Shown: piece after piece, positions 12,320 through 33,630 of the stretch | How the letters are laid out: each line of letters starts with the position of its first letter | Numbering within the stretch: position 1 is the stretch's first letter | DNA from: an uncultured Anaerolineaceae bacterium | Lineage (GTDB): Bacteria; Chloroflexota; Anaerolineae; Anaerolineales; Anaerolineaceae | Length of the DNA stretch: 34,124 bases | Reading direction: 5' to 3' | NCBI GenBank assembly: GCA_927443345.1 | Contig: CAKMKJ010000015.1 | Coordinates: 1 to 34,124 of the forward strand | Position numbers and translations under genes: made by a program | The notes under the pieces: model-generated | Seen by the model: the letters and a program-made list of their open reading frames with translations, nothing else | Databases searched by the model: none | What the model was told of the DNA's origin: nothing

Positions 12320-14251
12320 ATGCAAAATGAGAGAATTGATGCAAAAGAAAAGAGTATTCCGCAAAAATTATCACTCCTCTGGGAAAAAACTGTGAGCGAA
12401 ATTAGATCAACGGGGAATTCCAGTAAAAATCGTTTTGTTAACATAATATTAATCACAGGTTTTTGCTTGGGAATACTTTTTTGTATTTTTATCCCTTATG
12501 GAGCGGGATTTGATGAAGAACATCATATAATGCGAATTTATGATATATCTGGTTTTAACATCATGCCAAACCAGGAACCAGGAAACAAAACAATTGGGTT
12601 TTCGGAATTTTTTACACTTTCATATCAAAGACGTTATTTTCAATCATCCGCTATCGATTTGTTTAACAAAGATAACTTCTTAACTAAAGCCAATTATGAC
12701 AGCATGGCAATCACAAAAACGCGTTCAGATTATTCGCCGATATTATTTTTACCACAAGCATTTGTAACAGGCATTATCTGGCGATTGTTTGATATCCCGA
12801 TAATTCCTGGAGTGATGATTCTAAGGCTAACGGGTTTTTTGATATATTTTCTGATGGTTAGTTTGGCAATTCGGTTTATTCCAGTAGGAAAATGGGTTCT
12901 GGCGGTTTTGGCCTTTTCACCAACCGCCTTATTTCAAGCTGCTACGATAAATGCGGATGTATTCACTAATGGCGTCTGTTTTTTCTTTATTGGTTATGTG
13001 TTACATCTTGTAGTTAATGACGAAAAAGTAATTTCCCCTAATGAATTGTGGTTATTAATACTTGCAACTTTGTTGATAGGTTTTGCCAAACCGACAATTT
13101 CTAGCTTGGCACTATTATTGCTGATCATTCCAAAGAAGAAATTAGGATCCAAGAAAAACACAATACTAATTTTTGTCATAGCAGTTATTTCAATTATTAT
13201 TAATATGGGTTGGACAGTCTTGGTAAATGAAAGTGTGAAAATTGGTAATATAGATTCTGGGGTTTTGAACCCAGATGTTAATCTTTTCGAAAAATTTAAT
13301 CTAATTTTTGAAAACCCATTTGATTTTGTTTCGCTATTTTTTAGTGGAATTTTTCCGTCATTTATTCCTCGTTACCAGGCATGGGTTGGAGTATATGGAT
13401 ATTGGGTAGGAACTGTACCAGGAGTTATTTACTGGCTATATCCGATTCTTGTACTATCAGCGGTTTTGGCTGACTCTCATTCGACTAGGTATGACAAGAA
13501 AACTGTTATTTGGCTATTAGTAACCTTTTTTATTTGTGCATTTGGAATTAGCGCGTTAAACACTGGACTTATAGCGGTTTCTATTTTAGCTGGGACTGAT
13601 AGATCAATACTCGACAGTCAAGGTCGTTACTTTGTGCCTTATATGCCTTTATTAGTTATTGCATTAGGAAGTTTAATAAAAACTAAATTCCGTGATTTGT
13701 TTTGGCCACGTTGGCTTGCCATAGCATTGTTTGTTACAATTTCTGGGTTCTATACATTTGGATTATTTACTACTTATTACTCGGATTGTGGCTACGAATA
13801 TTTTGTGGGGAGTAATTGTAGAATGCCTAAGTACAAAAACTTGGAGATTGCCGACGCTCCTGTTGTTTCCCTATATCAAGAAAATTCTATAAATCAGTCA
13901 TTTATAAATACTTGCAGAGAAATCGAAAACGTACAAATTTATGTAAAATCAACGAATTCAAAGAATGGAATGATTCAGGTATCTCTGATTAATAAGGATA
14001 ATTCTGAATTATTGACCTCACACCTATTTGATATTGAAAACTTAAATAATCAATCATTTTTGACTCTCCCATACAGCGGTTTAGTCGATAAAGGTTCTGA
14101 ATATGTGATTGATTTGAAAGCAACTGATCTGGATAAATCCACGGGTGTTGATTTAGGTATTCGCCCTGAAAATGTCTATGAAGGTTCTCTGATGATAGAC
14201 GATCAATTATCTGATGGGGATCTAATATTTTTCTATACTTGTAGAAAGTGA
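12320..14251 (+). CDS. DUF2142 family membrane protein (complete)
   Basis: 643 residues. A cytoplasmic N-terminus of about 38 residues precedes the first helix. GAGFDEEHHIMRIY (61-74) is the D-E-x-H-x-x-R loop typical of DUF2142. Ten or so more helices follow, with NADVFTNG (211-218) and SQGRYFVPYMPLL (433-445). From about 485 an exported domain begins with C490 and C500 (CGYEYFVGSNC), then C532 and C641. The truncated gene at the left edge repeats this tail with identical 10- and 32-residue cysteine spacing. DUF2142 members are associated with surface polysaccharide synthesis and are related to GT-C transferases. GGAG at 12305-12308 is the ribosome site, 11 nt from the ATG. The 93-bp gap before it may hold its own promoter. 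Confidence 0.88.
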   Translation: MQNERIDAKEKSIPQKLSLLWEKTVSEIRSTGNSSKNRFVNIILITGFCLGILFCIFIPYGAGFDEEHHIMRIYDISGFNIMPNQEPGNKTIGFSEFFTLSYQRRYFQSSAIDLFNKDNFLTKANYDSMAITKTRSDYSPILFLPQAFVTGIIWRLFDIPIIPGVMILRLTGFLIYFLMVSLAIRFIPVGKWVLAVLAFSPTALFQAATINADVFTNGVCFFFIGYVLHLVVNDEKVISPNELWLLILATLLIGFAKPTISSLALLLLIIPKKKLGSKKNTILIFVIAVISIIINMGWTVLVNESVKIGNIDSGVLNPDVNLFEKFNLIFENPFDFVSLFFSGIFPSFIPRYQAWVGVYGYWVGTVPGVIYWLYPILVLSAVLADSHSTRYDKKTVIWLLVTFFICAFGISALNTGLIAVSILAGTDRSILDSQGRYFVPYMPLLVIALGSLIKTKFRDLFWPRWLAIALFVTISGFYTFGLFTTYYSDCGYEYFVGSNCRMPKYKNLEIADAPVVSLYQENSINQSFINTCREIENVQIYVKSTNSKNGMIQVSLINKDNSELLTSHLFDIENLNNQSFLTLPYSGLVDKGSEYVIDLKATDLDKSTGVDLGIRPENVYEGSLMIDDQLSDGDLIFFYTCRK

Positions 14252-18657: not shown

Positions 18658-20280
18658 TCATTTTACAACGATTACCGATTCGCAAGAAAAAATATTTTGA
18701 TGAACTGCCTCAAAACTAACCAATAAACAATCATTAGGATTCTTATAATAATCGTCGATAGGCCGAACCCCAACATCAACCTTCCCACCCGAAGACCATA
18801 AACCCAGTTCGTTTTCAAGTGATACTTCTAACTTACTAAAACTTTCTTTGTAATCCGCTGGAGGGTCACGATAAATATAAATATCATTAGTCACCGAATC
18901 ACTTCTCAAAAAGCGAATATAACTAATAATCTTTTCATAATCATTCTCTGATTTTTTTCCGTAGAAAACAATGGCTGAATTTTGATTAGTTATAGAAAAA
19001 TATTTAATATCATCCATACTTGATGCAAACTCTTGAGTTATTACAACATATTCTTTACTAATATTTCTTAATAAAAATAGATTATGAGGGTTGATGAAGA
19101 ATATCGCTATTACAACACTAATTCCTATCGTTGTCAGATGTGATAAAAATTTGTTTCGATTGTAAGGAAGGTTCTGAACAAAATTTGCCACCAAACTTAG
19201 CAAAAGAGGCAGAAATAAAGCGTATGGAATATTGTATCGACCCCAAATTGATCCAGAATAAAAATACTGCTGCGAAAAAATGAGAAGCAAAATCCCGCAG
19301 GTCCCGAAAACAAGGGTTAAAAAACGAAATCGTAAATGCTTAAATCCTTTTCTAGTCAAACCGATAATTCCGATAATTAATACAATCCCCAAAAACAACA
19401 TCACTAAATAGTTTTCAGTAAAATAATGACCGAAAAAGAATAAACGATCGAAAATTCCAATTGAATTGCCATAAAAGTCAGCGCCATTAGTCTTCATTCG
19501 AATAAATAAAGTTAAAACAATCCAGAATGTCATCAAAATCGAAATACTAATCATGAAAATTGGGAAAATGTTACGATTTATTGGCTTTCTGAAGAATAAT
19601 CCGAACAGAAATAATTCTGGGACAAGTATAATTATCATATTTTCCTTGCTGCCAATTGCTAGAACGGTACCAACCATAATTAAGAACCAAGAGATATTGC
19701 TTTCTTTGTTCTTTGATAATACGAGCACTCCTATCATAAATAAACTAAATCCAATAATTGCATATGTCTCAGATGGACCCAATCTAGAAAAAATACCATT
19801 CCAAAAATTGAACGTAGCAACCAGTATCGTAATGATTCCACCCAGAAGGCGACCATTAAAGCGTTTAAAGAATATATACAAGACGCTTGTAAAAAAAATA
19901 AAAATAAAAATTCTGGCTAGATACCAAGGAAATGGCGACTCTGAGGACCAAAGTCGAGTTTCAACCAATCGTAAAAAATAATAAACTGGTCTGAATCTTG
20001 GAATTGTTGAACTTGGGCTTATTTCTGTCTTCGACAATAAAGTGGGGATCAAATCACTAAAACCCATTGGATGAGAGGAAGGTGAATAATACACAATTTC
20101 ATGGTCATCGAGAATTCCCCATTGTGAATATAGGGATGGTTCAAATATAAAAAAAGCAATCGCGATCACTATCCCAATAATTAGACAATCAAAATAATGT
20201 TGAATTTGAACCAGATCAAAAAAAGAGAACGCTTTTTTTACTCTATTTTTGAAATAATTTCCAAATCGAGTTAAAACCAT
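18658..20280 (-). CDS. Polytopic membrane protein, GT39/GT-C-like
   Basis: 540 residues with about 11 helices. After the first helix (about 32-50) the exported loop contains SQWGILDDHEIVYY (52-65), a D-D/E acidic pair, then STIPRFRPVYYFLRLVETRLW. The helix-linking SRLGPSETYAI and IGSKENMIIILVPEL are typical of the PMT/GT39-like group, where GxKE often follows a helix pair. The C-terminal 150 residues are polar and exported, containing two cysteines near the end. A sugar transferase on the outer membrane face is the best guess. It is a lone gene: the next gene on this strand (hydA) ends 690 bp upstream of its start, behind IS debris. Confidence 0.72.
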   Translation of the reverse strand: MVLTRFGNYFKNRVKKAFSFFDLVQIQHYFDCLIIGIVIAIAFFIFEPSLYSQWGILDDHEIVYYSPSSHPMGFSDLIPTLLSKTEISPSSTIPRFRPVYYFLRLVETRLWSSESPFPWYLARIFIFIFFTSVLYIFFKRFNGRLLGGIITILVATFNFWNGIFSRLGPSETYAIIGFSLFMIGVLVLSKNKESNISWFLIMVGTVLAIGSKENMIIILVPELFLFGLFFRKPINRNIFPIFMISISILMTFWIVLTLFIRMKTNGADFYGNSIGIFDRLFFFGHYFTENYLVMLFLGIVLIIGIIGLTRKGFKHLRFRFLTLVFGTCGILLLIFSQQYFYSGSIWGRYNIPYALFLPLLLSLVANFVQNLPYNRNKFLSHLTTIGISVVIAIFFINPHNLFLLRNISKEYVVITQEFASSMDDIKYFSITNQNSAIVFYGKKSENDYEKIISYIRFLRSDSVTNDIYIYRDPPADYKESFSKLEVSLENELGLWSSGGKVDVGVRPIDDYYKNPNDCLLVSFEAVHQNIFSCESVIVVK

Positions 20281-20970: not shown

Positions 20971-22719
20971 CTACTTCATTCGCGCGTCCATTGGTGTTAA
21001 TACTTCCACATGTAGAATTTCGTGGGCTAGATGGCTTCCTGCTTCTCCGAGATATTCTTGATATAAAGCCTGAATGGCAGGGTTAAGATGCGACTTACGC
21101 ACTTTCGAATTACGGTCAATCTGATAAAGTCCTTGCAAACGCTTTTCTATGATCTCTTCACGCTCTTCTGCATAAGGCTGCCCTCCCCCGTTCACACAGC
21201 CGCCCGGACATGCCATGATCTCAATCACATCGAAATGTTCTTCATTTTTTTTGATTTTCTCTAACACCTGGCGAGCGTTGCCCAAACCTGAGACCGCTGC
21301 AACCCTAATACTCTTTTCTCCAATATTAACTTCTGCTACACGAATACCCGCCATACCGCGGACTGCGGTGAAATTTACATCTACCAACTCGCTGCCGGTT
21401 ATTTTGTAATAAACAGTGCGCAGTGCAGCTTCAAGAACACCGCCTGAACCACCAAAAATAGCACCCGCGCCTGAAGAGATGCCAAGGGGATTATCAAATT
21501 CTTCATCCTTTATATGGCTCAAGTTAACTGAACCTTCCTTCAACATCTTGGCAATTTCACGCGTGGTGAGAACAATATCCACATCACGCAGTCCGTACGT
21601 TTCTTCAGATGGTAAAGCCGCTTCATATTTCTTTGCAATACAAGGCATGATGGAGATAACCACCACATTTTTAGGATCGATGCCCATCTTTTGGGAATAA
21701 TAAGTTTTGGCAATCGCTCCTGTCATTTGCTGAGGTGACTTGCAGGTGGAGGCAACGTACTTTAATTCGGGGAACTGATGCTCCAAAAAGTTGATCCAAC
21801 CAGGGCAGCATGATGTTAAGATAGGCAAACCATCAGGGTTTTCTTGCAACCGCTCGACAATCTCTTTAGATTCTTCAATGATGGTCAGGTCAGCCCCAAA
21901 ATTGGTATCAAATACTGCGTTGAACCCCAGCTTGCGCAAGCCGGCAACAAGTCTTCCGGTGACTGCCTGTCCAGCAGGCATACCGAATTCTTCACCGATA
22001 GCTACGCGCACAGCAGGCGCAACCTGTACCACTACATGTTTCTTGGGATTAAACAAGGCAGCCCATGCTTCTTGAATGTAACCGATGCCTGTAAGGGCTG
22101 CTGTTGGGCATACACTCACACACTGTCCACAATAGACACAGGAAGATGTGACAATGGGGTTCATCTCAGCAGGAGCCACGACAGTGTGAAAACCGCGGCC
22201 ATAGGCAGTCAGTGCACCAACCGTCTGCACTTCATTGCACATTGTTTCACAGCGCCGACACATGATGCATTTATTTGGATCTCGTTTGAGCGCACAGCTG
22301 GATTTATCCATGGGATGCTCTGAGCGCTCACCCGTATACCGTTGGGTATTGATGCTAAACTCCCAGACCCTTTTTTGTAATTCACAATCTGTAGATTTAC
22401 CGCAAACAAGACAATCAAAGGGATGGTTGGAAATGATCAATTCAAGGTTTTTACGCCGTGAAGAAAGCACACGTTTGGAATTGGTTATCACTTTCATTCC
22501 CTCAAAGACAGGTGTGGCGCAAGCAGGTGCAAGATTGCGGCGTCCTTCCACTTCGACCACACACACACGGCAAGAAGCAACTTTATTCAGATATTTAATT
22601 TTCTCAAGGTTCAAGTAGCAAAGCGTTGGAATATCCAGGTTAAGCTTGCGTGCGGCATCCAATACATTGGTTCCGTCAGGAACACTTACTTGTTCTCCAT
22701 CAATAGTCAAGTTAATCAT
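20971..22719 (-). CDS. hydA: [FeFe] hydrogenase catalytic subunit HydA (NAD-linked, HydABC type)
   Basis: 582 residues. N-terminal [2Fe-2S] ligands C34, C50, C53 and C67; His-ligated [4Fe-4S] site H99-x3-C103-x2-C106-x5-C112; two ferredoxin clusters (C151, 154, 157, 161 and C194, 197, 200, 204). The H-cluster domain has all three signatures: TSCCPGW (302-308), MPCIAKK (358-364) and EIMACPGGCVNGGGQP (500-515), including the proton-transfer cysteine C304. It is shorter than Thermotoga HydA, lacking a C-terminal [2Fe-2S] domain. With HydB and HydC it should form the cytosolic complex that produces or consumes H2 using NADH and reduced ferredoxin (electron bifurcation or confurcation is family knowledge, not visible here). 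Ribosome site AAGGAG precedes the ATG; hydB ends 9 nt upstream. No HydEFG maturases lie in the window. Confidence 0.97.
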   Translation of the reverse strand: MINLTIDGEQVSVPDGTNVLDAARKLNLDIPTLCYLNLEKIKYLNKVASCRVCVVEVEGRRNLAPACATPVFEGMKVITNSKRVLSSRRKNLELIISNHPFDCLVCGKSTDCELQKRVWEFSINTQRYTGERSEHPMDKSSCALKRDPNKCIMCRRCETMCNEVQTVGALTAYGRGFHTVVAPAEMNPIVTSSCVYCGQCVSVCPTAALTGIGYIQEAWAALFNPKKHVVVQVAPAVRVAIGEEFGMPAGQAVTGRLVAGLRKLGFNAVFDTNFGADLTIIEESKEIVERLQENPDGLPILTSCCPGWINFLEHQFPELKYVASTCKSPQQMTGAIAKTYYSQKMGIDPKNVVVISIMPCIAKKYEAALPSEETYGLRDVDIVLTTREIAKMLKEGSVNLSHIKDEEFDNPLGISSGAGAIFGGSGGVLEAALRTVYYKITGSELVDVNFTAVRGMAGIRVAEVNIGEKSIRVAAVSGLGNARQVLEKIKKNEEHFDVIEIMACPGGCVNGGGQPYAEEREEIIEKRLQGLYQIDRNSKVRKSHLNPAIQALYQEYLGEAGSHLAHEILHVEVLTPMDARMK

Positions 22720-22728
22720 TTTTGCTCC

Positions 22729-24606
22729 TTAATTACGTACCACAGCGCCAAATTTACAACGGGTCATACAAGCACCACATTTGATGCATTTGGATTGGTC
22801 AATAGTGTGAAGTTGTTTCACCGCTCCAGAGATACAGTTCACCGGACAGTATCGCGCACAAGAGGTACATCCGATGCATTTTTCGGATAAAATTTCATAA
22901 ATCAGCAGTTTCTGGCATACGCCTGCCGGGCATTTTTTGTCAATAACATGGGCTTCATATTCATCCATGAAATACTTCATTGTGCTCAACACTGGGTTTG
23001 GTGCAGTCTGTCCCAGACCACAAAGCGACGTATCAATAATCGTTTCTGAAAGTGCACGAAGTTCATTCAAATCATCAAGCGTACCCCGCCCCTCGGTGAT
23101 GCCAGTGAGAATTTCAAACATGCGTTTGTTTCCGATACGGCACGGCACACAGCGTCCGCAGGATTCCTCGACAATGAATTCCATGTAGAAACGGGCAATA
23201 TTGACCATGCAGTCATTCTCACTCATGATGATCATGCCACCAGACCCCATCATAGAGCCAATCGAAGCCAGAGATTCATAATCAATTGGTGTATCAAGAT
23301 ACTGCTTGGGGATGCAGCCGCCTGACGGACCGCCTGTCTGAGCTGATTTGAACTCAGCACCACCTTTGATGCCACCTCCAATACTAAAGATGATCTCACG
23401 CAGGGTGATTCCCATAGGTACTTCAACAAGACCTACATTATTAACTTTACCTGCAAGAGCAAATACCTTGGTACCCTTTGAAGTTTCAGTACCAATAGAA
23501 CTAAACCATTTGGCTCCACGGGTTATAATTTCAGGCACATTTGCCAGAGTTTCGACATTATTTACAATTGTTGGTTTGTTCCACAATCCGCTTTCAGCCG
23601 GGAAAGGTGGCTTTGTGCCAGGCTCGCCGCGTAGTCCTTGAAGAGAATGAATCAACGCAGTTTCTTCGCCACACACAAAAGCACCTGCGCCCAAACGGAT
23701 AGAGATATCAAAATCAAAATCGGATCCAAGTATGTTTCTACCGAGCAACCCCATCTGACGAGCTTGTTCAATGGCGATCTCAAGCCGGTGAACCGCAAGA
23801 GGATATTCAGCCCGAATATAGACGACACCTTGTTGTGCTCCAATGGCGTAACCCGCGATACACATACCCTCGATGACGCTATGAGAGTCGCCTTCCATAA
23901 TTGAACGATCCATGAATGCTCCAGGGTCGCCCTCATCTGCATTGCAAATGATGAATTTTTCATCATTTTGATACTTGCTGGCGAATTCCCATTTCTTGCC
24001 AGTGGAGAAACCTGCCCCACCGCGTCCGCGCAAACCGGAAGCGATCATTTCAGTAATAACCTCTTGAGGAGTCATTTCAGTAAGTACTTTAGAAATTGCC
24101 TGGTAGCCGCTTGCTGCGATATATTCTTCAATTTTTTCAGGATTGATCAAACCGCAGTTGCGCAGTGCCACCCGCTGCTGAAGTTTATAAAATGAAATAT
24201 CTTCTGAAGTCTCTTTCTTTTCTTTGAGAATGGGATCTTCATATAAAAGCCTGGTGACTTTTTGGCCATTCAGGATGTGTTGGGTAAAGATATCTTCTAC
24301 GTCTTCCGGTTTTACCTGCACATAAAACACATTCTCAGGGAAAATCTTAATGATGGGGCCTTGTTCACAGAACCCGAAACAGCCAGAAATGGAGGCAAAA
24401 ACCTTACCTTCAAGATTGTTTTTTTTAATCTGATCTTCAAAATTCTTGACGATCTTCTCGCTTTCTGAAGCGTGACACCCCGTGCCGCCACAAATGAGGA
24501 TCATTCGTGTATCGTCATCAATAACCGTGCCCAGTCTGGTGGCAAGCAGACCTTTATATTGTTCGTATGCGCTTGCTAATTGTTCACTTGACCGAATCTC
24601 AGACAT
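22729..24606 (-). CDS. hydB: NAD-linked [FeFe] hydrogenase subunit HydB (NuoF-like, FMN/NADH site)
   Basis: 625 residues. An N-terminal thioredoxin-like [2Fe-2S] domain (C39, C44, C76, C80) is followed by the NuoF core: GLRGRGGAGFSTGKKW (191-206) for NADH, CNADEGDPGAFMDR (221-234) for FMN, and GAGAFVCGEETAL. Next comes the [4Fe-4S] site ESCGRCVPCR with C483, 486, 489 and C529. H553, C559 and C564 fit the extra metal (zinc) site described for HydB proteins. The C-terminus is a two-cluster ferredoxin (C577-587, C607-617). This is the full HydB layout and length. It oxidises or reduces NAD(H) and is the presumed bifurcation site. Its ATG overlaps the hydC stop by 8 nt; hydA follows after 9 nt. 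Confidence 0.97.
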   Translation of the reverse strand: MSEIRSSEQLASAYEQYKGLLATRLGTVIDDDTRMILICGGTGCHASESEKIVKNFEDQIKKNNLEGKVFASISGCFGFCEQGPIIKIFPENVFYVQVKPEDVEDIFTQHILNGQKVTRLLYEDPILKEKKETSEDISFYKLQQRVALRNCGLINPEKIEEYIAASGYQAISKVLTEMTPQEVITEMIASGLRGRGGAGFSTGKKWEFASKYQNDEKFIICNADEGDPGAFMDRSIMEGDSHSVIEGMCIAGYAIGAQQGVVYIRAEYPLAVHRLEIAIEQARQMGLLGRNILGSDFDFDISIRLGAGAFVCGEETALIHSLQGLRGEPGTKPPFPAESGLWNKPTIVNNVETLANVPEIITRGAKWFSSIGTETSKGTKVFALAGKVNNVGLVEVPMGITLREIIFSIGGGIKGGAEFKSAQTGGPSGGCIPKQYLDTPIDYESLASIGSMMGSGGMIIMSENDCMVNIARFYMEFIVEESCGRCVPCRIGNKRMFEILTGITEGRGTLDDLNELRALSETIIDTSLCGLGQTAPNPVLSTMKYFMDEYEAHVIDKKCPAGVCQKLLIYEILSEKCIGCTSCARYCPVNCISGAVKQLHTIDQSKCIKCGACMTRCKFGAVVRN

Positions 24607-25144
24607 TGGCTGCCTCTTTCTCTGCTACTTCTTCTTCAATAAAGAATTTTTCAAGGATCTCTCTGACATCACCGGCTTTTACTTTTCCAAAGACTTTATC
24701 GTTGATCGTTACCACTGGTGCCAGACCGCAAGCCCCTACGCAACGCAGACTTTCAATAGAGAATTTGCCGTCTTCGGTCACCTGACCGGATCGAACTCCA
24801 ATCACCTGCTCGAATTCTTGCAGAACCTTATCGGCACCGTTAACATAGCAAGCGGTTCCAAGGCATACATTGACCTGTATTTTGCCTTTGGGTGTGGTGG
24901 TGAAAAAATTGTAGAAACTGATCACACCAGAAACATCCGCATGCGGGATGGAATAATGGTTTGCGATGAAAACCTGTACGATCTCTGGCAGGTAACCAAA
25001 AATTTTTTGTGCACGATGTAAGGTCATGATTAGTGTGTCTTTACGTCTGGGATTCTCATGATTAATTTTCAAACTATCAATATATTGTTGAAGATCTTTG
25101 AATTGTGGATGATTCTTTTCTATCGAACATGTTGGTGAAATCAT
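24599..25144 (-). CDS. hydC: NAD-linked [FeFe] hydrogenase subunit HydC (NuoE-like)
   Basis: 181 residues of the NuoE/24-kDa thioredoxin-like [2Fe-2S] family. The helical N-terminal part contains RAQKIFGYLPEIV and GVISFYNFF; cluster ligands are C94 and C99 (CLGTACYV) and C135 and C139 (CVGACGLAPVV). HydC passes electrons within the HydABC complex. A strong ribosome site AAAGGAG sits just before the ATG at 25144. The stop codon overlaps the hydB start, implying coupled translation. Upstream, the ABC ATPase ends only 17 nt away on the same strand, so there is no room for a separate hydrogenase promoter there; the ABC genes and hydCBA probably share a transcript. Confidence 0.96.
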   Translation of the reverse strand: MISPTCSIEKNHPQFKDLQQYIDSLKINHENPRRKDTLIMTLHRAQKIFGYLPEIVQVFIANHYSIPHADVSGVISFYNFFTTTPKGKIQVNVCLGTACYVNGADKVLQEFEQVIGVRSGQVTEDGKFSIESLRCVGACGLAPVVTINDKVFGKVKAGDVREILEKFFIEEEVAEKEAANV

Positions 25145-25161: not shown

Positions 25162-25863
25162 TTAATGGCTTGGCACAAAAACTGGCGCCGGATTTAATAG
25201 CCCTGAAAACAGGCTTTGAAAATCAAATGAATTCAACTTTGAAGGGGTCACAAGTTGGTTTGATACAAAATAATAGACCGAATCTGTCAGCAGAGGAATT
25301 TCCTCAAGGCTATGGGTAGCCATCAAAATCGCTAGATTTGGATAGTGCCGCTTGATAAACTCAATAATGGTTGTCTTGGCTGCCTGACCAATAGATTGAA
25401 AAGGTTCATCCATCAACACCAAAGCGGGATTGCCTAAAAATCCGCGAATCAATGCTGCTTTTTGCCGCATACCTCCAGAAAGTTGGTAAGGATAATGATT
25501 CTTCCAGGCGTTTAATTCGCAAACACGCAGCCATTCTTGATAATGCAGTTGTGTTTGAATTGTCCAACTGTCTTTTTTAATGCGCCAGGGCAGCTTAATG
25601 TTTTCTTCCACTGTCATGTAAGGAAAGAGTCGCGGTTCCTGAAAAAAGACAACCGGTGCCGTTTCATTCACCAGAAGACTGCCGCTGGTTGCGGGTTCCA
25701 GCCCGGCTAGAATGTGGATGAGCGTGGTTTTGCCTGCGCCTGAAGGTGCAAAGAAAGCAATGCGTTCACCGCGTTTGAGTTCAAACGATAAATTATGAAT
25801 TACCTCATGACTTTGATAAGTTTTGCTCAGTTCGAAGGTTTTGATGATTGTATCCGGGGTCAT
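25162..25863 (-). CDS. TauB/SsuB-like ABC uptake ATPase
   Basis: 233 residues: Walker A APSGAGKTT (39-47), Q-loop FFQEPRLFPYMTVEEN (73-88), signature LSGGMRQK (128-135), Walker B LVLMDEP (148-154) and switch histidine in MATHSLEE. The pattern matches nitrate/sulfonate/taurine/thiamine-precursor importers. The D-loop reads PFQSIGQ instead of the usual PF.ALD, so the catalytic-dimer aspartate is missing at that position. The ATG overlaps the permease stop in an ATGA junction (25860-25863). Together with the permease and lipoprotein it forms a complete importer directly upstream of hydCBA. The substrate cannot be predicted. Confidence 0.92.
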   Translation of the reverse strand: MTPDTIIKTFELSKTYQSHEVIHNLSFELKRGERIAFFAPSGAGKTTLIHILAGLEPATSGSLLVNETAPVVFFQEPRLFPYMTVEENIKLPWRIKKDSWTIQTQLHYQEWLRVCELNAWKNHYPYQLSGGMRQKAALIRGFLGNPALVLMDEPFQSIGQAAKTTIIEFIKRHYPNLAILMATHSLEEIPLLTDSVYYFVSNQLVTPSKLNSFDFQSLFSGLLNPAPVFVPSH

Positions 25864-26627
25864 CTGGCCTCCGGATAAGCAAATTTTTTCAGCGACACTG
25901 TGAACACAAGAGATTGAATGGCCTGAAATGCCAATGAGAAAGCCATCAACAACAACAGATAAAAGAAGACTTCCTGCATATTGAAAATAATACGGGCGCG
26001 ATTGAGCAAATACCCCAAACCGTCTTGTGAACCGATAAACTCGCCCAACACCACTACTTTGACGGCCATACTGATGCCCAAACTAAGATTACTTTGAATA
26101 ACTGGTACAAGCGCTGGCAGATAGCTGTAACGAATAATTTGCCATTTTGAAGCCTTGATTGAGTGCAAGTAATTTTCAGTTCCAGTATTACGCTTTGAAA
26201 TTCCGTTTGTGGTATTTATCGCGAGCGTTGGTAGCGTAAGAAAAGCCACGAGAAGAATCGGTGTTGCGCTGCCAATGCCAAACATCAGTAAAAAGATCAC
26301 CCCCAGGATCGTTCCTGGTACGACTTGCAAGGCAACCATTAAGGAGTTAACCGGCTTATCTGCCCTGGCAAGCATTGACAATATGCCACCAAATGTGCCT
26401 AGAAGAAAGGCGATTAAGAATCCAGTTAATATTCGATACAAAGTAACCGCCAAGTGCCCTGAAAGACCTACAGGTAATTCACTTGAAATACCCTTAAGCG
26501 TTTCAACTGGAGACGGGATGATATAAGGGGGATAGAAAGTCGATACCCCGCCCCATATCACCAGAATCACCAGGATCCCGACCGCTTCAGTGAGTAGCGC
26601 TGAAATAAAAATCCGAGAAGTTTTCAT
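25860..26627 (-). CDS. TauC/SsuC-like ABC uptake permease
   Basis: I place the start at ATG 26627 (255 residues). A TTG at 26663 would add 12 residues, but the family usually starts near the first helix. About six helices are seen. YIIPSPVETLKGI after helix 1 is the classic P-S-P segment of this permease family. The cytoplasmic loop NYLHSIKASKWQIIRYSYLPALVP is the EAA-type coupling region, in degenerate form, and GEFIGSQDGLGYLLNRAR is the usual end of that block. The 5' end overlaps the lipoprotein gene by 41 nt; the 3' end overlaps the ATPase by 4 nt. It imports a small molecule with the adjacent ATPase and binding protein. Confidence 0.9.
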   Translation of the reverse strand: MKTSRIFISALLTEAVGILVILVIWGGVSTFYPPYIIPSPVETLKGISSELPVGLSGHLAVTLYRILTGFLIAFLLGTFGGILSMLARADKPVNSLMVALQVVPGTILGVIFLLMFGIGSATPILLVAFLTLPTLAINTTNGISKRNTGTENYLHSIKASKWQIIRYSYLPALVPVIQSNLSLGISMAVKVVVLGEFIGSQDGLGYLLNRARIIFNMQEVFFYLLLLMAFSLAFQAIQSLVFTVSLKKFAYPEAR

Positions 26628-27576
26628 CGAGTGGTTTACCAATTGTTTGATAGTAGCTTTCAATTGAGGCTTGCATCTCGGAACCTGACAGAAGCAGATA
26701 ACGAGTACGAGAGACTGATGTCATCAGTTTTCCTGGAGACAACTTGTACTGATCTTTGATCTGGTCAATTGCTGCTTGTGGATCTTCTTGCACAGATTGG
26801 ATAGCGCTTGCCAATGCCGAGTTGAAATCTCTAAGGAAGGCTTCATTTTCAGCAGCCCAATCGGGATTCACCAAAGAAGCCACTTGAGGATAACCATGCT
26901 GGCTGCCAGTGCTACGGTTCCATTCTTTTGCGAGATCAAGTGAAATGAACACATTAGGTTGACCTTCGACCAGTGTAACCATAGGTTCAGGAAGAACCAC
27001 TGCATCTGCTTTACCTTGTTTGAGTAGTTCAATAGAAGACTCAAAGGGTGAATAGACAGCCGAGATGTCTTCTTTCCAGGTCATTCCCTCTGAGGCTGCC
27101 AGGAATCCGACTACCTCATCGATGGGAGAACCCTCAAACGGAACATAGATGGATTTGCCAACCAATTCCTTCAGGCTGGTGACCGGTGTGCCATAAGTTA
27201 CCAAATAGGAGAGACCTGAAACAATTGAATTGGCTGCTTGAACCGGCACACCATTCTTATAAAGATCAATCCCGACTGACAAACCACTGACCAAAATTGA
27301 AACATCCCCGCGGATGAACTCAGTGTTAGCTTGTGACTGATCGGCGAACAGAATCATTTTTACATGGGGAAACTGGCGGGCAGCCAGAATTACCGGGATA
27401 GATGAAGTAGACATGGGCGCATAGATTGTGATTTGTTCGATAAAATCTGGAGAAACTGTAGTCTTGGTGTCTGCTTTTTCGCCTTGAGTTGACGTGCCTT
27501 TTGAAGTTGAACTGCAACCACTCATGGTGCTTAAAAATAACCCAAGAATCAGAATTACCAGTAATTTGTTTTTCAT
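26587..27576 (-). CDS. ABC importer substrate-binding lipoprotein (SsuA/NMT1-like)
   Basis: I start it at ATG 27576 (329 residues), with aaggaaa upstream. There MKNKLLVILILGLFLSTMSGC is a standard lipoprotein signal with the cysteine at the end of STMSGC; a frame from 27618 adds 14 unlikely residues. The mature protein has the two-lobe layout of NMT1/SsuA-like proteins: a first lobe with VILAARQFP, a hinge with GKSIYVPFEGSPID and GKADAVVLPEPMVTLV, typical of the aromatic-sulfonate, nitrate and HMP-binding relatives. It should deliver the unknown ligand to the permease-ATPase pair. The preceding four-CBS gene ends 117 nt upstream. Confidence 0.9.
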   Translation of the reverse strand: MKNKLLVILILGLFLSTMSGCSSTSKGTSTQGEKADTKTTVSPDFIEQITIYAPMSTSSIPVILAARQFPHVKMILFADQSQANTEFIRGDVSILVSGLSVGIDLYKNGVPVQAANSIVSGLSYLVTYGTPVTSLKELVGKSIYVPFEGSPIDEVVGFLAASEGMTWKEDISAVYSPFESSIELLKQGKADAVVLPEPMVTLVEGQPNVFISLDLAKEWNRSTGSQHGYPQVASLVNPDWAAENEAFLRDFNSALASAIQSVQEDPQAAIDQIKDQYKLSPGKLMTSVSRTRYLLLSGSEMQASIESYYQTIGKPLDENFSDFYFSATH

Positions 27577-27670
27577 ACTTACATTTCCTTTTATAGACAT
27601 TATTAATAAACCCATCACTAGTGTTGTGAGAGAGAATAAATAGAGTAATAATGAACTATTTGAGAGTGTC

Positions 27671-27693: not shown

Positions 27694-28530
27694 CTAATAG
27701 AATTTTTGAATCACCATTAAGAACAAATCACTTTCAGTAAGAATACCGATCAGTTTCTTTTTCTCATCAAGAACGGGCAATACATGGATTTTCTGTTTAA
27801 CCATTATTCTGGCAGCTTCATTGACTTCAATATTCTGCCCAATGGTCATTACATCTTTTGTCATCAACTTTTCAAGATCCTGAGTGAGAATCTTCAACGA
27901 GAGTTCCTGATTATTACGTGAAGCCAGACGGGAAGGATCACTGCTCATCAGATCAGTACGAGTCACCAGACCGACTAGGTGATCATTTTCAACCACAGGT
28001 AAACTACGGATTCTCTTGGTGCCCATCAGACTGTGCGCTTCAAGCAGGCTGGTATAACGGCCTACAGTTACGACTTCATCTGTCATGCAGTTTTGCACTA
28101 ACACCGGTTTTGACAGTTCGGGATAACCAGTGATCAAGAACCTCAAAACATCAGAATTGGTTAATATTCCAACCAGGCTACCTTTTACAACCACTGGCAG
28201 CGCAGTAATTTTGTTTTCAAGCATCACCCTCGCAGCTTTGGGTACGGTGGAATCAGGAGTTACGGTTAACGGCTTGAGGGTCATCACATCCCTAACTTTG
28301 CCATCCTCGAAATCAGCGTTGCTGTTCCAAGTTTCAATTCCGAGCACTGAAAGATCAAGACGCAGCAATCCGCGTTTGGTAATAATGCCCACCAGCTTAT
28401 TGTCTTTCATAACCGGAAGTGCTCTAATTTTATTTTCCGAGATCAAGCTTCGTGCATCCTTCAAGGTTGTATCAGGCGTTACAGTTATTACTTTTGACGA
28501 CATCCAGGCTTTTACAAGTCGATTTTCCAT
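27694..28530 (-). CDS. Protein of four tandem CBS domains
   Basis: 278 residues made only of CBS repeats at about 9-58, 77-133, 143-198 and 219-271, forming two Bateman modules. Each repeat has the form 'MT..V.TV.P...L.EA...M....I..LPVV....LVGI.T..DL'. CBS modules bind adenine nucleotides or NADH and serve as energy or redox sensors, but no effector domain is attached, so it must act through a partner protein. GGAGGGA sits 5-6 nt before the ATG. It lies between a response regulator and an ABC-hydrogenase block on the same strand, which would fit a sensor of cell energy state (inference). A short palindrome atact/agtat (28561-28573) overlaps a candidate -10 (TATACT on the minus strand). Confidence 0.9.
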   Translation of the reverse strand: MENRLVKAWMSSKVITVTPDTTLKDARSLISENKIRALPVMKDNKLVGIITKRGLLRLDLSVLGIETWNSNADFEDGKVRDVMTLKPLTVTPDSTVPKAARVMLENKITALPVVVKGSLVGILTNSDVLRFLITGYPELSKPVLVQNCMTDEVVTVGRYTSLLEAHSLMGTKRIRSLPVVENDHLVGLVTRTDLMSSDPSRLASRNNQELSLKILTQDLEKLMTKDVMTIGQNIEVNEAARIMVKQKIHVLPVLDEKKKLIGILTESDLFLMVIQKFY

Positions 28531-28634
28531 TTAGTCCCTCCAAAGTCAATGCCAATTTTCATACTCAGAGTATAGTGTTTACCATTGATTCACACATCGG
28601 AATAAAAGGTGAACATTTTGACCCAAATCGATGA

Positions 28635-28666
28635 GAACGGCATCATCATTAATGATGATGCCGTTC
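28635..28666. terminator. Perfect 32-bp palindrome after the response regulator gene
   Basis: gaacggcatcatcatt (28635-28650) is followed directly by its exact complement (28651-28666). As RNA it folds into a long stem with a tiny loop. It lies 37 nt past the regulator's stop codon and 105 nt before the CBS gene. It is likely a terminator or RNA stabiliser, though without a T-tract on the minus strand. Confidence 0.7.
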
Positions 28667-28703: not shown

Positions 28704-29384
28704 TTAGTTTGATGTTCCGTTTTCATCTTGCACTTGGGAGATCACCCCTGCCCGCATCGCGTAGACAACCGCCTGTGTGCGGCTGGAAACATCAAGTTTT
28801 GCCAAAACTCTGCTCACATGCGTGTGCACCGTTGCTGCACTGAGAACCATGATTTTTGCAATTTCCTGATTGGAGTGCCCTTTTGCCATCAAACGCAAAA
28901 CATCCAGTTCACGTTCAGTGAGTTTTTCAATCAAACCCGTTTGTTCATCGCTATTATTGATTTGTTTAAGTACATGGCCAACTACAGAGGGATGCAGCCA
29001 GGGTTCACCTTTGGCGATAGAACGTATCGCCTGAAGTATATCTGGTTCAGGTGCATCCTTAAGAATGAAACCGATTGCGCCAGCATTAAGTGCTGGCATG
29101 ACTCTATCGCTTTTATTGACACCAGAAAAAATGAGTACATTAATTGAAGGATTAATTTTTCGAATTTCTCGAGTGGCTTCAATTCCATCCATTTCTGGCA
29201 TAATCAAATTCATCAGAACAACATTAGGAACCTGAGACTTCGCCAATTCAATCGCTTTGCGTCCATTGCTTGCCACACCTACCAACTCAATATCCGGGTG
29301 GTTCTTTACCATAGATACAAGCCCACTAAGGACCACCGGGTAGTCGTCTACAATTAAAAGTCGAATAGTTGTACTTTCTTTCAT
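28704..29384 (-). CDS. NarL/FixJ-type response regulator with Asn at the phosphoacceptor site
   Basis: 226 residues: receiver domain 8-125 and LuxR-type helix-turn-helix about 155-215 (LTERELDVLRLMAKGHSNQEIA, then VHTHVSRVLAKLDVSSRTQA). The receiver keeps the acidic pair D13-D14, the switch serine S87 and lysine K109. However, the phosphorylated Asp is Asn59, in VVLMNLIMPEMDG (codon AAT at 29208-29210 on the minus strand). Ordinary phosphorylation should therefore be impossible; the protein may be constitutive, ligand-controlled or regulated through a partner. No histidine kinase is in the window. It is divergent from the MFS gene and faces three tandem repeats in the shared control region. 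Confidence 0.93.
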   Translation of the reverse strand: MKESTTIRLLIVDDYPVVLSGLVSMVKNHPDIELVGVASNGRKAIELAKSQVPNVVLMNLIMPEMDGIEATREIRKINPSINVLIFSGVNKSDRVMPALNAGAIGFILKDAPEPDILQAIRSIAKGEPWLHPSVVGHVLKQINNSDEQTGLIEKLTERELDVLRLMAKGHSNQEIAKIMVLSAATVHTHVSRVLAKLDVSSRTQAVVYAMRAGVISQVQDENGTSN

Positions 29385-29586: not shown

Positions 29587-30903
29587 ATGGACGTAACCGA
29601 AGCCAAAGATATAAAGCCCAGAATGAACCGGGGGGCTAAAACGACTGTGGCGGTGTTTTTCGTTTTCATGCTCTTGCACCAAACTGATAAGCTTTTAATC
29701 GGCCCGCTCCAAACCCCCATCATGGATACCTTTAAAATGACTTACACACAATGGGGATTGATAAACTCTGGTGCGTTGATAGTTGGTACGCTCTTCTATC
29801 CACTTTGGGGATGGTTGAGTGACAAATATAACCGCGGCAAACTCTTGGCACTTGCTTCGTTTATATGGGGATCCACAACCTGGTTAAGCGCTCTTGCACC
29901 CAACTTCAAAACCTTTTTATTGACCCGTTCTTCTACCGGTATTGATGACTCAAGCTACCCCGGTATGTACAGCTTGATCTCTGATCTTTATTCTCCAAAA
30001 GTCCGCGGCAAGGTTTATGGGATTTTGCAATTGACCCAACCCATCGGTTATCTGATCGGTATGGTTGTTGCGCTGATGCTCACTGAAGTTGTCGGAGGGT
30101 GGCAAAACATCTTCATTATTACCGGTTCTCTTGGCATCGTGCTGGCTGTGGTGATTTACTTCACGGTCAAGGATGTCCCCCGCGGTAGCTGTGAAACCGA
30201 ATTGCAAGGCGTCGAAGTTCAACAGCATAAATTTAACTGGAAGGCTCTTAGCCAAATCTTCAAAAAGAAAAGCCTGTGGATGGTATACGCCCAGGGATTT
30301 GCGGGGGTATTTCCATGGAACGTGATAACCTATTACATTTTTGGGTATTTGGGAACCGAACGCGGATACGATGAAACAACAACCTTAATGGTCATGGGCC
30401 CCGCGATTCTTCTGATGGCTGCCGGGTATCCAACAGGAGGATGGCTAGGAGACAAACTATTCAAGAAAACCAAAGGTGGTCGTTTGATTGCCAGTGAGAT
30501 TGGTGTCGTTTTAGGGATGGTTGGACTTTTCCTAGCGATGAACACACCCAATGAACAGGTTCTTATGTTTGGTATCTTGCTTTGCCTCACAGCATTTTTC
30601 ATGCCCTTCGCATCCCCGAACATCATCTCCACAATGTATGATGTGACGCTGCCTGAAGTGCGTTCTTCTGCCCAATCTGTTGAGAGTCTGATCGAAACCG
30701 CTGGTGCCTGGACGGCTCCTATCCTTGCCGGTGTGCTGGCAGACGCAACTTCAGTTGGTTTTTCAATAAAGTTGATCTGCACCGCAGCATGGTCTTTGTG
30801 CGTTGTATTCCTTCTTGCCGCCATATTCTTCATTCCGAAAGATATCAATGCCCTTCACAAAGAACTTGAAGCACGTGCCTTAGAAGCTGCAAAATCAAGT
30901 TAA
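29587..30903 (+). CDS. MFS transporter
   Basis: 438 residues with the usual 12 helices in two bundles. After helix 2, GWLSDKYNRGKLLAL is the MFS motif A (G-x-L-x-D-x-x-x-R-G/R). TRSSTGIDDSSYPGMYSLISDLYSPKVRGKVYG corresponds to the helix 4-5 region typical of spinster-like or organic-anion MFS members; acidic D-D in helix 4 is notable. A second-half motif A copy is GWLGDKLFKKTKGGR. The substrate is unknown; sugars, organic acids or lipids are possible. GAGGAG precedes the ATG. It is transcribed from its own promoter, divergently from the response regulator, and followed by an 8-bp hairpin. That regulator, with three tandem repeats between, is the obvious candidate controller. Confidence 0.92.
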   Translation: MDVTEAKDIKPRMNRGAKTTVAVFFVFMLLHQTDKLLIGPLQTPIMDTFKMTYTQWGLINSGALIVGTLFYPLWGWLSDKYNRGKLLALASFIWGSTTWLSALAPNFKTFLLTRSSTGIDDSSYPGMYSLISDLYSPKVRGKVYGILQLTQPIGYLIGMVVALMLTEVVGGWQNIFIITGSLGIVLAVVIYFTVKDVPRGSCETELQGVEVQQHKFNWKALSQIFKKKSLWMVYAQGFAGVFPWNVITYYIFGYLGTERGYDETTTLMVMGPAILLMAAGYPTGGWLGDKLFKKTKGGRLIASEIGVVLGMVGLFLAMNTPNEQVLMFGILLCLTAFFMPFASPNIISTMYDVTLPEVRSSAQSVESLIETAGAWTAPILAGVLADATSVGFSIKLICTAAWSLCVVFLLAAIFFIPKDINALHKELEARALEAAKSS

Positions 30904-31587: not shown

Positions 31588-33630
31588 CTAATTTTTAATC
31601 TGTAAAGGAATATTTATCAACTTTATTTGTGTTACAGAAAATAACTGGGGAACATTTGCATCTTGATAAGTATCAAATAGAGAATAATAAGTATCCCAAA
31701 AAACCTGATCTGAAGAGCAAACTAGAACATGAGTATAGCCTTGATCATTCAGCAGCCTCATCCACTCATCTGGGCTCATTTCAATGGAATTCTCATCATC
31801 AATGGTTAGTAAGTTTCCATCATTTTCAGGCGAATAAACCAATCGCCAACCATAATTGTTAGTGGCAATTGGTGTTAAATGGTACTTCATCATGTAATGA
31901 CTCAACCCATAGTATGAGTCAACTTGCCAAATGACAAAAATTTTATCTTTTCTAGAAAAATTTTCTTTGGCTACTTTCGAGATACGACTAACTTCAAACC
32001 TTCGCGAATCATCAGGGGAATTTGGAGAATGAATATAAGCTGACAAGGGTGTAATAAGCACGAAGACAAGCATTAACGCTGCAGTTATCACACTTGAAGC
32101 CTTGGCATTAATTCCTGGAATTTCAATTGAATCTTGTTGGTAGATAATGCATAGAATAAGTAACCACCATCCTAAAAGGTAACTTGAGAGATATCTATTT
32201 ACACTCGGAACACCGATTCCAGCCATAGGTGGAAAATAATAAATATATGCAAATAGTAAAGTAAAACCATAAATGACAATTCCGAGGAATAAGATAATCG
32301 TGGTTTGGGATAAGGCGCTTTCTTTTCGAGATTGTTTTGAGGTGAATGAATATATCAATAAAGAAGTGAACAAGATAAACAGCAAGGCATTAAACGATGT
32401 AATTCGAACAGTTTCAAAAGTTTGCGTAGAAACATTGGAAACAAAGTTTTGAATAATTAATTTCGTCCGATAAGGAATATTTACAGTAAAAGTACGAAGT
32501 ATCCCAGTTAAGCTGATATTTATCGCAGTTGGTTGATCCAAAACATAGGTGTTTTTGTCATAGCGAGCTGCTTGGTCTTCTAACTTACCGAGATAAAATA
32601 CAGGGTCTCCCGGATAAATCTCTTCGATAGAAACAGGATTATCATTAAAACTCAGATTGACAGCTATTTTGCTAAATTGCTTTGTGTGGATGTTCCAACT
32701 TATTAACGACAATACTGTCAAACTGATAATTATGAGAATCTTGGGTTGCACCAATAAAGTTAAAAAGGATTTCCATAAGCCCTTTATGGAATGGACTTGA
32801 TTTTTTTCCAAAAGCACATTAAGAAAAAGCACAACGATGCAAATTAAAGCAAGAAGAAATCCTAAAGGTTTTGTTAATGTAAGCGCTACTGCGGCAAAAA
32901 TTATGGCAACAACTCGATCGTTGGCTAAATTGTTATTAAATACAGCCAAAGCCAATCCTATCCCAAAAAGCAATCCGATTGTTAAATCAACATACAAAGA
33001 CTGAAATCTTAGGTCAATAGGAAATATAGCAAGGACACATAGGAGAAATACCGACAAATATTTTTTCCAGTTTCCCCATTTATTATTAGGAAGGATGGCA
33101 ATGACTGAGCTAAATGACAGTAGTAAATGTGCGAAATACGCGCTGGACTCTGAGTTGTTCAGGATTGTTCCAACAAAATATTGAAATAGTGCTGTAAATG
33201 GTGGGTAATTATTGACTAAAAAATTACTAGTTATATCAGGCAGATGGTTGGTCGCCATCAAATACCGAAATATTAGTCCCCAATAAGAGAACTCATCCCA
33301 CTTATAAAATAATGTTCCCAAGGTATAAAATGCGATTAACAGAAAAGTGATTAGCCAAACAACTAATGGAAGTGATAAGGTTTTGTTCTCTTTTGGAGTT
33401 TTTTTTTGCCAATCCAGAATAGAAAGAATCCCCATGCCAATCAGTACTATAATCGTGATAACCAAACCCGGTTTGAGAAAATTGAATAAGGCGAAAACAT
33501 ATAAACCAATCGTTATCCCGCCAATTGTTATAAATGGGGCTAAGAATTGAGATATTGATAACTTGCGGACCAGAAATAGAATTCCTGAGCCAAGTAGAAT
33601 AAATAGAAAGAATATTTTTACTATTATCAT
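31588..33630 (-). CDS. Polytopic membrane protein, GT-C-like glycosyltransferase
   Basis: 680 residues, about 13 helices, then a polar exported tail of about 150 residues. The first long loop reads LFYKWDEFSYWGLIFRYL (107-124), followed by FLVNNYPPFTALFQYF (about 137-152). The W-D-x-x-S-x-W...Y-P motif pair also occurs in the 459-residue protein at 16250-17629, so I place both in one family. W-D with an acidic second residue in the first exported loop suggests the catalytic base of a GT-C transferase. The tail begins near VSRISKVAKENFSRKDK and includes YTHVLVCSSDQ. A ggtgga ribosome site lies upstream of the ATG. The gene is not preceded by another within the window. Confidence 0.75.
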   Translation of the reverse strand: MIIVKIFFLFILLGSGILFLVRKLSISQFLAPFITIGGITIGLYVFALFNFLKPGLVITIIVLIGMGILSILDWQKKTPKENKTLSLPLVVWLITFLLIAFYTLGTLFYKWDEFSYWGLIFRYLMATNHLPDITSNFLVNNYPPFTALFQYFVGTILNNSESSAYFAHLLLSFSSVIAILPNNKWGNWKKYLSVFLLCVLAIFPIDLRFQSLYVDLTIGLLFGIGLALAVFNNNLANDRVVAIIFAAVALTLTKPLGFLLALICIVVLFLNVLLEKNQVHSIKGLWKSFLTLLVQPKILIIISLTVLSLISWNIHTKQFSKIAVNLSFNDNPVSIEEIYPGDPVFYLGKLEDQAARYDKNTYVLDQPTAINISLTGILRTFTVNIPYRTKLIIQNFVSNVSTQTFETVRITSFNALLFILFTSLLIYSFTSKQSRKESALSQTTIILFLGIVIYGFTLLFAYIYYFPPMAGIGVPSVNRYLSSYLLGWWLLILCIIYQQDSIEIPGINAKASSVITAALMLVFVLITPLSAYIHSPNSPDDSRRFEVSRISKVAKENFSRKDKIFVIWQVDSYYGLSHYMMKYHLTPIATNNYGWRLVYSPENDGNLLTIDDENSIEMSPDEWMRLLNDQGYTHVLVCSSDQVFWDTYYSLFDTYQDANVPQLFSVTQIKLINIPLQIKN

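Follow-up and report, generated by a model that had tools for sequence, protein, structure and literature searches.

A NarL-type regulator with asparagine at the phosphoacceptor position beside an [FeFe] hydrogenase operon, and its kinase-coupled sister clade

Introduction

Receivers without the phosphorylatable aspartate are an established class: PMC4395418 puts them at up to 4% of receivers (2,976 sequences), gives Asn as 16% of the substitutions, and names Chloroflexi among the groups enriched in them. A review of 2025 defines an aspartate-less receiver (ALR) by the absence of Asp from the phosphorylation position, and calls the switching of pseudo-receivers, of which ALRs are a subset, a mystery (PMC12632262). 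One described case is RitR of Streptococcus pneumoniae, in which mutation of Asn53 is reported to have left DNA binding and promoter activity unaffected (PMC4395418). As described there, RitR resembles the regulator treated here in having Asn at the phosphoacceptor position and a DNA-binding output, but it is of the OmpR/PhoB type with Lys at the second acidic position, whereas the present protein is of the NarL type with a pocket that is otherwise intact. Our regulator, unlike RitR, also adjoins a hydrogenase operon and has a sister clade with both Asp and a kinase.

VraR and NarL, members of the same NarL/FixJ family, are among the nearest solved structures and align with our regulator over nearly the full length. 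Both have partner kinases; NarL has the Asp, as do three aligned entries named VraR, unlike the window regulator. BldM and WhiI of Streptomyces are of the NarL/FixJ type as well. They are described as orphan atypical response regulators, but they control development (PMC4125116). For VraR, a dimer centred on helix alpha1 is known (PMC6612188).

A hydrogenase operon under a response regulator is described for the HupT/HupR pair of Rhodobacter capsulatus, where HupR activates when unphosphorylated and deletion of the kinase gives constitutive activation (PMC5133592). By that account, HupR has in common with the scheme proposed below that it is the response regulator of a hydrogenase operon and is active unphosphorylated; it differs in its target, an uptake [NiFe] hydrogenase. 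The window regulator is not of the HupR type, as the NtrC-type AAA+ domain is absent from its Pfam matches. HupR-type proteins are marked by that domain and by dependence on sigma-54, and HupR itself, an NtrC-type regulator, keeps its Asp. The two may share only their logic.

Among the papers that our searches of one open-access library listed, judged by title and the start of the abstract, we found nothing on the window regulator, on a block of histidine kinase, response regulator, CBS, and Hox genes, or on an [FeFe] hydrogenase controlled by an aspartate-less regulator. Asn-type ALRs are already known; what is new is the [FeFe] hydrogenase setting, together with a sister clade in which kinase and Asp are still present and, in 5/7 cases, another hydrogenase as well. 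The reading we prefer, at a probability of about 0.6, is that the protein is a pseudo-receiver NarL-type transcription factor, phosphate-free at residue 59, that descends from a kinase-coupled regulator most likely belonging to an NAD-linked [NiFe] Hox operon; it would bind DNA as a dimer and control the CBS-ABC-HydCBA genes.

The regulator and its residue 59

The window, i.e., the whole stretch of DNA analysed, comprises 34,124 nucleotides from an uncultured Anaerolineaceae bacterium (genome G000), which by its gene content would be an anaerobic member of the Chloroflexota. Its minus strand carries, at 28704-29384, an open reading frame for a response regulator of 226 amino acids, in which a receiver (Response_reg, PF00072, residues 10-121, 86.6 bits) is followed by a LuxR/GerE helix-turn-helix (GerE, PF00196, residues 154-209, 73.3 bits), both matches being far above the cut-off. 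This domain order and the alignment with VraR and NarL place the protein in the NarL/FixJ family. The sequence-only reading had reported the codon AAT, and hence Asn, at residue 59 with the rest of the active site kept, and this was borne out: on a second reading, bases 29210-29208 of the minus strand gave AAT (29208-29210), the alignment puts this codon at the phosphoacceptor position, and D13, D14, S87, and K109, which were checked against the set of active-site residues in PMC12632262, are all retained. The receiver also has Pro at D+4 and Gly at D+8, and the phosphoacceptor is the only active-site loss. A canonical two-component response regulator has a phosphorylatable Asp together with the DD, T/S, and K residues; the absence of Asp59 sets the window regulator outside that class, and with Asn in 9/9 members of its clade it is an ALR. 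It is also an orphan response regulator, its neighbors being a CBS protein and a divergent MFS transporter, with no adjacent sensor kinase.

A single Asn clade among Asp regulators

A search of 147 genomes of the family (E <= 1e-62) yielded 15 regulator matches in 14 genomes among the at most 20 candidates scored per genome, and a class-wide sample of 396 genomes (E <= 1e-60) contributed one further sequence, G529, which has Asp, and none with Asn among the best few candidates scored per genome. Residue 59 is Asn in 9 of the 16 aligned sequences (the window's own genome, G115, G004, G002, G008, G028, G166, G165, and G144) and Asp in the other seven (G114, G025, G116, G034, a second copy in G115, G118, and G529). 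The question left by the sequence-only reading, whether Asn59 is fixed among homologues, is thus answered: it is fixed in 9/9 members of the clade, and 7/7 of the nearest relatives have Asp. The codon is AAT in seven cases and AAC in two, i.e., it varies synonymously, and the nine sequences come from nine separate genomes; with Asn in every clade member, a sequencing slip is ruled out.

The maximum-likelihood tree contained 35 rows, made up of the 16 clade and sister sequences and 19 of the further regulators fetched. The Asn group forms one side of a single branch (support 100/100) with a stem of 0.64 changes per column. Asp occupies the site in 29/29 counted rows of the wider regulator set without the Asn clade, two of the 29 being sisters; rows L031 and L047 (wrong strand) and L008 (a distant regulator that is gapped at this position) were left out of this count. 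From the tree and these 29 rows, Asp is judged ancestral and replaced once, and the comparison shows, for the sequences sampled, that the Asn clade arose a single time among regulators with Asp. One point against our reading is that the fork setting G118 (Asp) outside the other 15 sequences, and with it the nesting of the Asn clade within the Asp sequences, is supported at 94/94, just below the 95 mark.

That long stem is what a decaying gene or an assembly error might produce, but this explanation is barely credible, as it is contradicted by orthologues from nine genomes, all with Asn. The frame is also open, the helix-turn-helix is on average 81% identical within the Asn clade (65% between clades), and nonsynonymous distances lie far below synonymous ones. 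In five Asn-clade pairs, the nonsynonymous distance of the receiver is 0.05-0.28, whereas the synonymous distance runs from about 2.5 to saturation; the low former and the saturated or nearly saturated latter indicate purifying selection on the regulator gene, and a formal dN/dS ratio was omitted because of the saturation. Receiver identity averages 68% within the Asn clade and 54% between clades. As the Asn clade shows no variation in 42/118 receiver columns, an invariant Asn59 is by itself weak evidence for selection on Asn.

G115, which carries both an Asn and an Asp copy, is listed with 6% contamination, and one protein encoded nearby has its best match among nine other genomes in G118 (90%), outside its own genus; the Asn copy in this one of the nine genomes may be native, transferred, or misbinned. 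The distance and gene-order comparisons did not include G529, which was placed by search coordinates only. A search of the genome contigs with the regulator gave only three weak loci, at 28-34% identity, which were set aside.

The window's genome encodes other NarL-type regulators with Asp, and a heterodimer is reported for the atypical BldM and WhiI (PMC4125116). The Asn59 regulator might accordingly be imagined to act only in mixed dimers with another NarL-type regulator, or in competition with one, as a repressor or dominant-negative form. We consider this unlikely because a close partner is wanting: the next best regulator in the genome is 40% identical.

Hydrogenase operons of the two forms

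All genes of the row downstream of the regulator lie, like it, on the minus strand. The first encodes a four-CBS-domain protein (27694-28530), and it is followed by genes for an NMT1/SsuA-like substrate-binding protein of a NitT/TauT-type ABC transporter (26587-27618), an ABC permease (25860-26663), an ABC ATPase (25162-25863), a HydC/NuoE-like subunit (24599-25144), a HydB/NuoF-like subunit (22729-24606), and HydA (20971-22719), all called from Pfam and, for the binding protein and the three Hyd subunits, NCBIfam. The NF040763 match of HydA (839.5 bits, cut-off 765) makes it an NADH-dependent [FeFe] hydrogenase of group A6; the hydrogenase block that had been recognized beside the regulator from the letters alone is thus rightly named, 20971-25144 being HydA, B, and C of that group. 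The same row (CBS, NitT/TauT-type ABC, HydC, HydB, HydA) follows the Asn regulator in the window, G115, G004, G008, G166, and G165. At the G144 locus the match to the binding protein is missing, and at the G002 locus the contig ends inside HydB.

The ninth Asn regulator, that of G028 (L065, 1619-2281, minus strand), is on a 3.3-kb contig with none of the CBS, ABC, or Hyd genes, and that genome yielded a match neither to CBS (E <= 1e-40) nor to [FeFe] HydA (E <= 1e-150). This regulator, in which the second acidic residue, D14, is also replaced by Asn, therefore either acts on something else or is a remnant; its persistence without CBS or HydA matches counts against our reading. The frames neighboring it are without a match to the window's genes.

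The Asp form stands in another setting. In G025, G116, G034, and G118 it is followed by a four-CBS gene and HoxE, F, U, Y, and H-like genes (those of G025 were scanned), and in G529 the coordinates place CBS and HoxH after it; in 5/7 cases, then, the Asp form, a four-CBS gene, and [NiFe] HoxH lie in one block. The regulator and CBS genes are separated by extra genes in G025, G116, and G114 (one extra frame in the last). The G115 Asp copy is at a contig end. In G114 (L069) the kinase, Asp regulator, and CBS genes are together and the next frame matches one located after HoxH in G025, but HoxH itself was not matched at E <= 1e-40; Hox genes seem to have been lost from, or to be missing in, this genome. 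The Asp form is consequently not tied to Hox everywhere, which is a further point against the preferred reading. Conversely, HoxH of at least 77% identity was found in 0/9 Asn genomes; eight have a relative at 48-49% and G144 has none.

ABC-HydCBA also exists on its own. In G025, G116, and G114 it lies in a stretch with no regulator or CBS match (the G114 stretch starts within abcS), and the same holds in G122, G142, G143, and G127. The block is thus independent of the Asn59 regulator, and it is the regulator-CBS pair that switched place or partner: the gene-order comparison shows this pair upstream of ABC-HydCBA in the Asn clade instead of upstream of Hox. The direction of the change, from Hox to Hyd, would follow from the tree. 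A NitT/TauT-type ABC transporter (25162-27618, minus strand, in the window) is found upstream of [FeFe] HydCBA in the window and seven other Asn-regulator loci, and also in 7/14 further loci (G025, G116, G114, G122, G142, G143, and G127); there was no match to it upstream of HydCBA in G105, G101, G094, G031, and G104, and the G017 and G136 loci are cut or different.

The sensor kinase

In 6/6 readable loci the frame upstream of the Asp regulator overlaps it by 4 bp. Three of these overlapping frames were scanned and contain GAF, HisKA_3, and HATPase_c domains, i.e., they encode histidine kinases, with GAF in two stretches of each by at least one GAF model. When 15 genomes were compared, a match to this kinase (54-100% identity) was present in 7/7 genomes with the Asp form, being split over two contigs in G114, and there was no match at E <= 1e-60 in 6/9 Asn genomes, including that of the window. 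Two of these six, G144 and G002, are only 62% and 84% complete, respectively, and absence there is weak evidence. G166 and G165 each have one distant relative of the kinase (35-37%) elsewhere in the genome, and the sole Asn genome with a close kinase is G115, where a 70% match lies beside the Asp copy. With these qualifications, the comparison shows the GAF-containing histidine kinase of the Asp form to be absent from the Asn clade.

The proposal of the sequence-only reading that the regulator is not switched by phosphate at residue 59 is now well supported by the fixed Asn, the mostly absent kinase, and two variable positions near the phosphorylation site that are described below; its companion proposal, that the regulator acts constitutively, is plausible. 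On one and the same branch the phosphate site is lost, the kinase is missing, and the target operon is another one, and close relatives keep the old arrangement; for this reason the conversion can be tested with natural pairs of protein and promoter.

Changes in the receiver

The clade comparison found 19 protein positions that differ cleanly between the two forms. Changes in the Asn clade include Tyr for His at position 15 (9/9), Leu for Arg at 19 (9/9), mostly Ser (7/9) for Lys or Arg at 20, and Asn for Asp at 59, and further F86 for Leu, G88 for Ser, A98 for Ser, and E113 for what is mostly Pro. T+1 is Gly in 9/9 Asn sequences and Ser in 7/7 Asp sequences. Retained in the Asn clade are D13 (9/9), D14 (8/9), Ser/Thr87 (9/9), and K109 (9/9), which a fully freed receiver need not keep, and to that extent the pocket speaks against our reading.

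D+2, T+1, and T+2 are reported to affect phosphorylation kinetics directly (PMC12632262). Among the 68 receiver columns that are invariant in the Asp clade, D+2 (residue 61, six residue types) is the most variable in the Asn clade, and T+2 (residue 89, five types) is tied for second; their summed variability is reached by only 2/2278 column pairs, a figure that is descriptive because this pair was picked after the table had been seen. T+1, unlike these two, is not variable but fixed to Gly. The contrast at D+2 holds only against the sister clade, and so tells somewhat against the preferred reading, because nine residue types occur there in the 29 wider Asp rows; T+2 is Phe or Tyr in 27/29 of those rows and in 0/9 Asn rows. 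The comparison nevertheless shows that constraint was lost, relative to the sister clade, at two positions reported to affect phosphotransfer, and the pattern is compatible with relaxed selection on phosphotransfer while the fold was retained.

The same columns bear on whether Asn59 might deamidate to Asp and then be phosphorylated by another kinase or by acetyl phosphate. This is very improbable, given that most Asn genomes yielded no match to the sister kinase, that D+2 and T+2 vary widely, that D14 too is lost in G028, and that Asn is followed by Leu, Val, or Ile, none of which favors fast deamidation. What can be said for it is the largely complete retention of the other active-site residues and a report of an Asn receiver that reverts to Asp, in a paper that also raises deamidation for such receivers (PMC4395418).

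Positions 15 to 20 align with the VraR segment containing Met13, which lies in alpha1 at the dimer center (PMC6612188); the aligned residue, V17, is invariant in both clades. The new hydrophobic residues of alpha1 may favor a phosphate-free dimer, and in the mechanism we propose their contacts would support it: the regulator would bind DNA as a dimer without phosphorylation, being most simply always competent, and would act on the conserved promoter of the CBS-ABC-HydCBA genes, to which its position and a shared promoter element would link it. Output would be set by the amount of regulator, by other factors at the promoter, or by a new input, in place of the kinase. If the Asp ancestor was active unphosphorylated, as HupR is, losing both the kinase and the Asp would lock the regulator on.

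Alternatively, the receiver could be a switch gated by a ligand or protein, its pocket or its changed alpha1 face binding a partner that relays redox or energy state, possibly the four-CBS protein as a sensor of adenylates or NAD(H). The retained pocket skeleton and the new residues at 15, 19, 20, and T+1 would suit such a switch, as would a CBS match in the same block at 8/9 Asn-form and 6/7 Asp-form loci. The last count cuts both ways, however, since the kinase-coupled Asp form also comes with the CBS gene and the CBS protein is thus no replacement for the kinase; G028, moreover, has the Asn regulator with no CBS match. We regard a gated receiver as doubtful. Of the suggestion made from the letters alone that the four-CBS protein provides the input, an association is what the comparison bears out, for the two reasons just given; as the regulator's partner the CBS protein is possible but not favored. 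A broader and equally tentative version is that an entire control module of response regulator, four-CBS protein, and promoter element moved from the [NiFe] Hox to the [FeFe] Hyd operon and on the way exchanged its kinase for an intracellular signal that acts directly: the CBS protein would sense adenylate or NAD(H) state, and the ALR would read it. If this were true, the two sister clades would document, as a natural pair, how a two-component system looks before and after its conversion into a one-protein regulator.

Upstream regions and remaining genes

A -10-like box, TATACT, lies upstream of the CBS gene (28569-28574, minus strand), and 24-21 bases upstream of it is a GATG element (28595-28598, minus strand). 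Both G residues of this element, at -24 and -21, are invariant in 12/12 loci of both forms (2.18 bits, kinship between the sequences being uncorrected), the comparison limit being 1.05 bits (95%) for the best column in 500 shifted sets. Conservation of the box itself is built in because the loci were aligned on it. G165 is outside the 12-locus statistic owing to a weak -10 match, and by eye has CGATG at the same distance. The box is absent from the promoters listed by a sigma-70 scan, which is compatible with an activator-dependent promoter, and the element common to both clades may be a candidate site of the Asn59 regulator or of something else.

Between the regulator and CBS genes there is a perfect 32-nt palindrome, GAACGGCATCATCATT/AATGATGATGCCGTTC (28635-28666), which a scan called terminator-like on the plus strand only, i.e., the strand opposite to these two genes. 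Similar TCATCATTAATGATGA cores lie upstream of CBS in G115, G004, and G144. A Rex-type operator was sought upstream of the regulator, CBS, and abcS genes, but the outcome is given no weight as evidence: a site with one mismatch in the 14 fixed bases occurs only upstream of CBS in G165 and G114, every other listed site has 3-4 mismatches, and the region upstream of CBS in the window's genome has no listed site. The stretches upstream of the stand-alone ABC-HydCBA blocks of G025 (L110, 5469-5759) and G116 (upstream of abcS, L111) resemble each other, and each holds a candidate stretch of Rex-type appearance, TGATGAAATTCACAAG in G025 and TGATGTTTTTCACAAG in G116.

The MFS transporter gene divergent from the regulator (29587-30903, plus strand) had no match beside the regulator in 14 related stretches; its best subfamily match is of galactonate type, below the cut-off. 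Downstream of HydA, a frame of 540 amino acids (18658-20280, minus strand) had no Pfam or NCBIfam match at E <= 0.001, and the large frames at 2535-4631 (minus), 10340-12226 (plus), and 31588-33630 (minus) are without a Pfam match. The frames at 15-968 and 12320-14251 match DUF2142.
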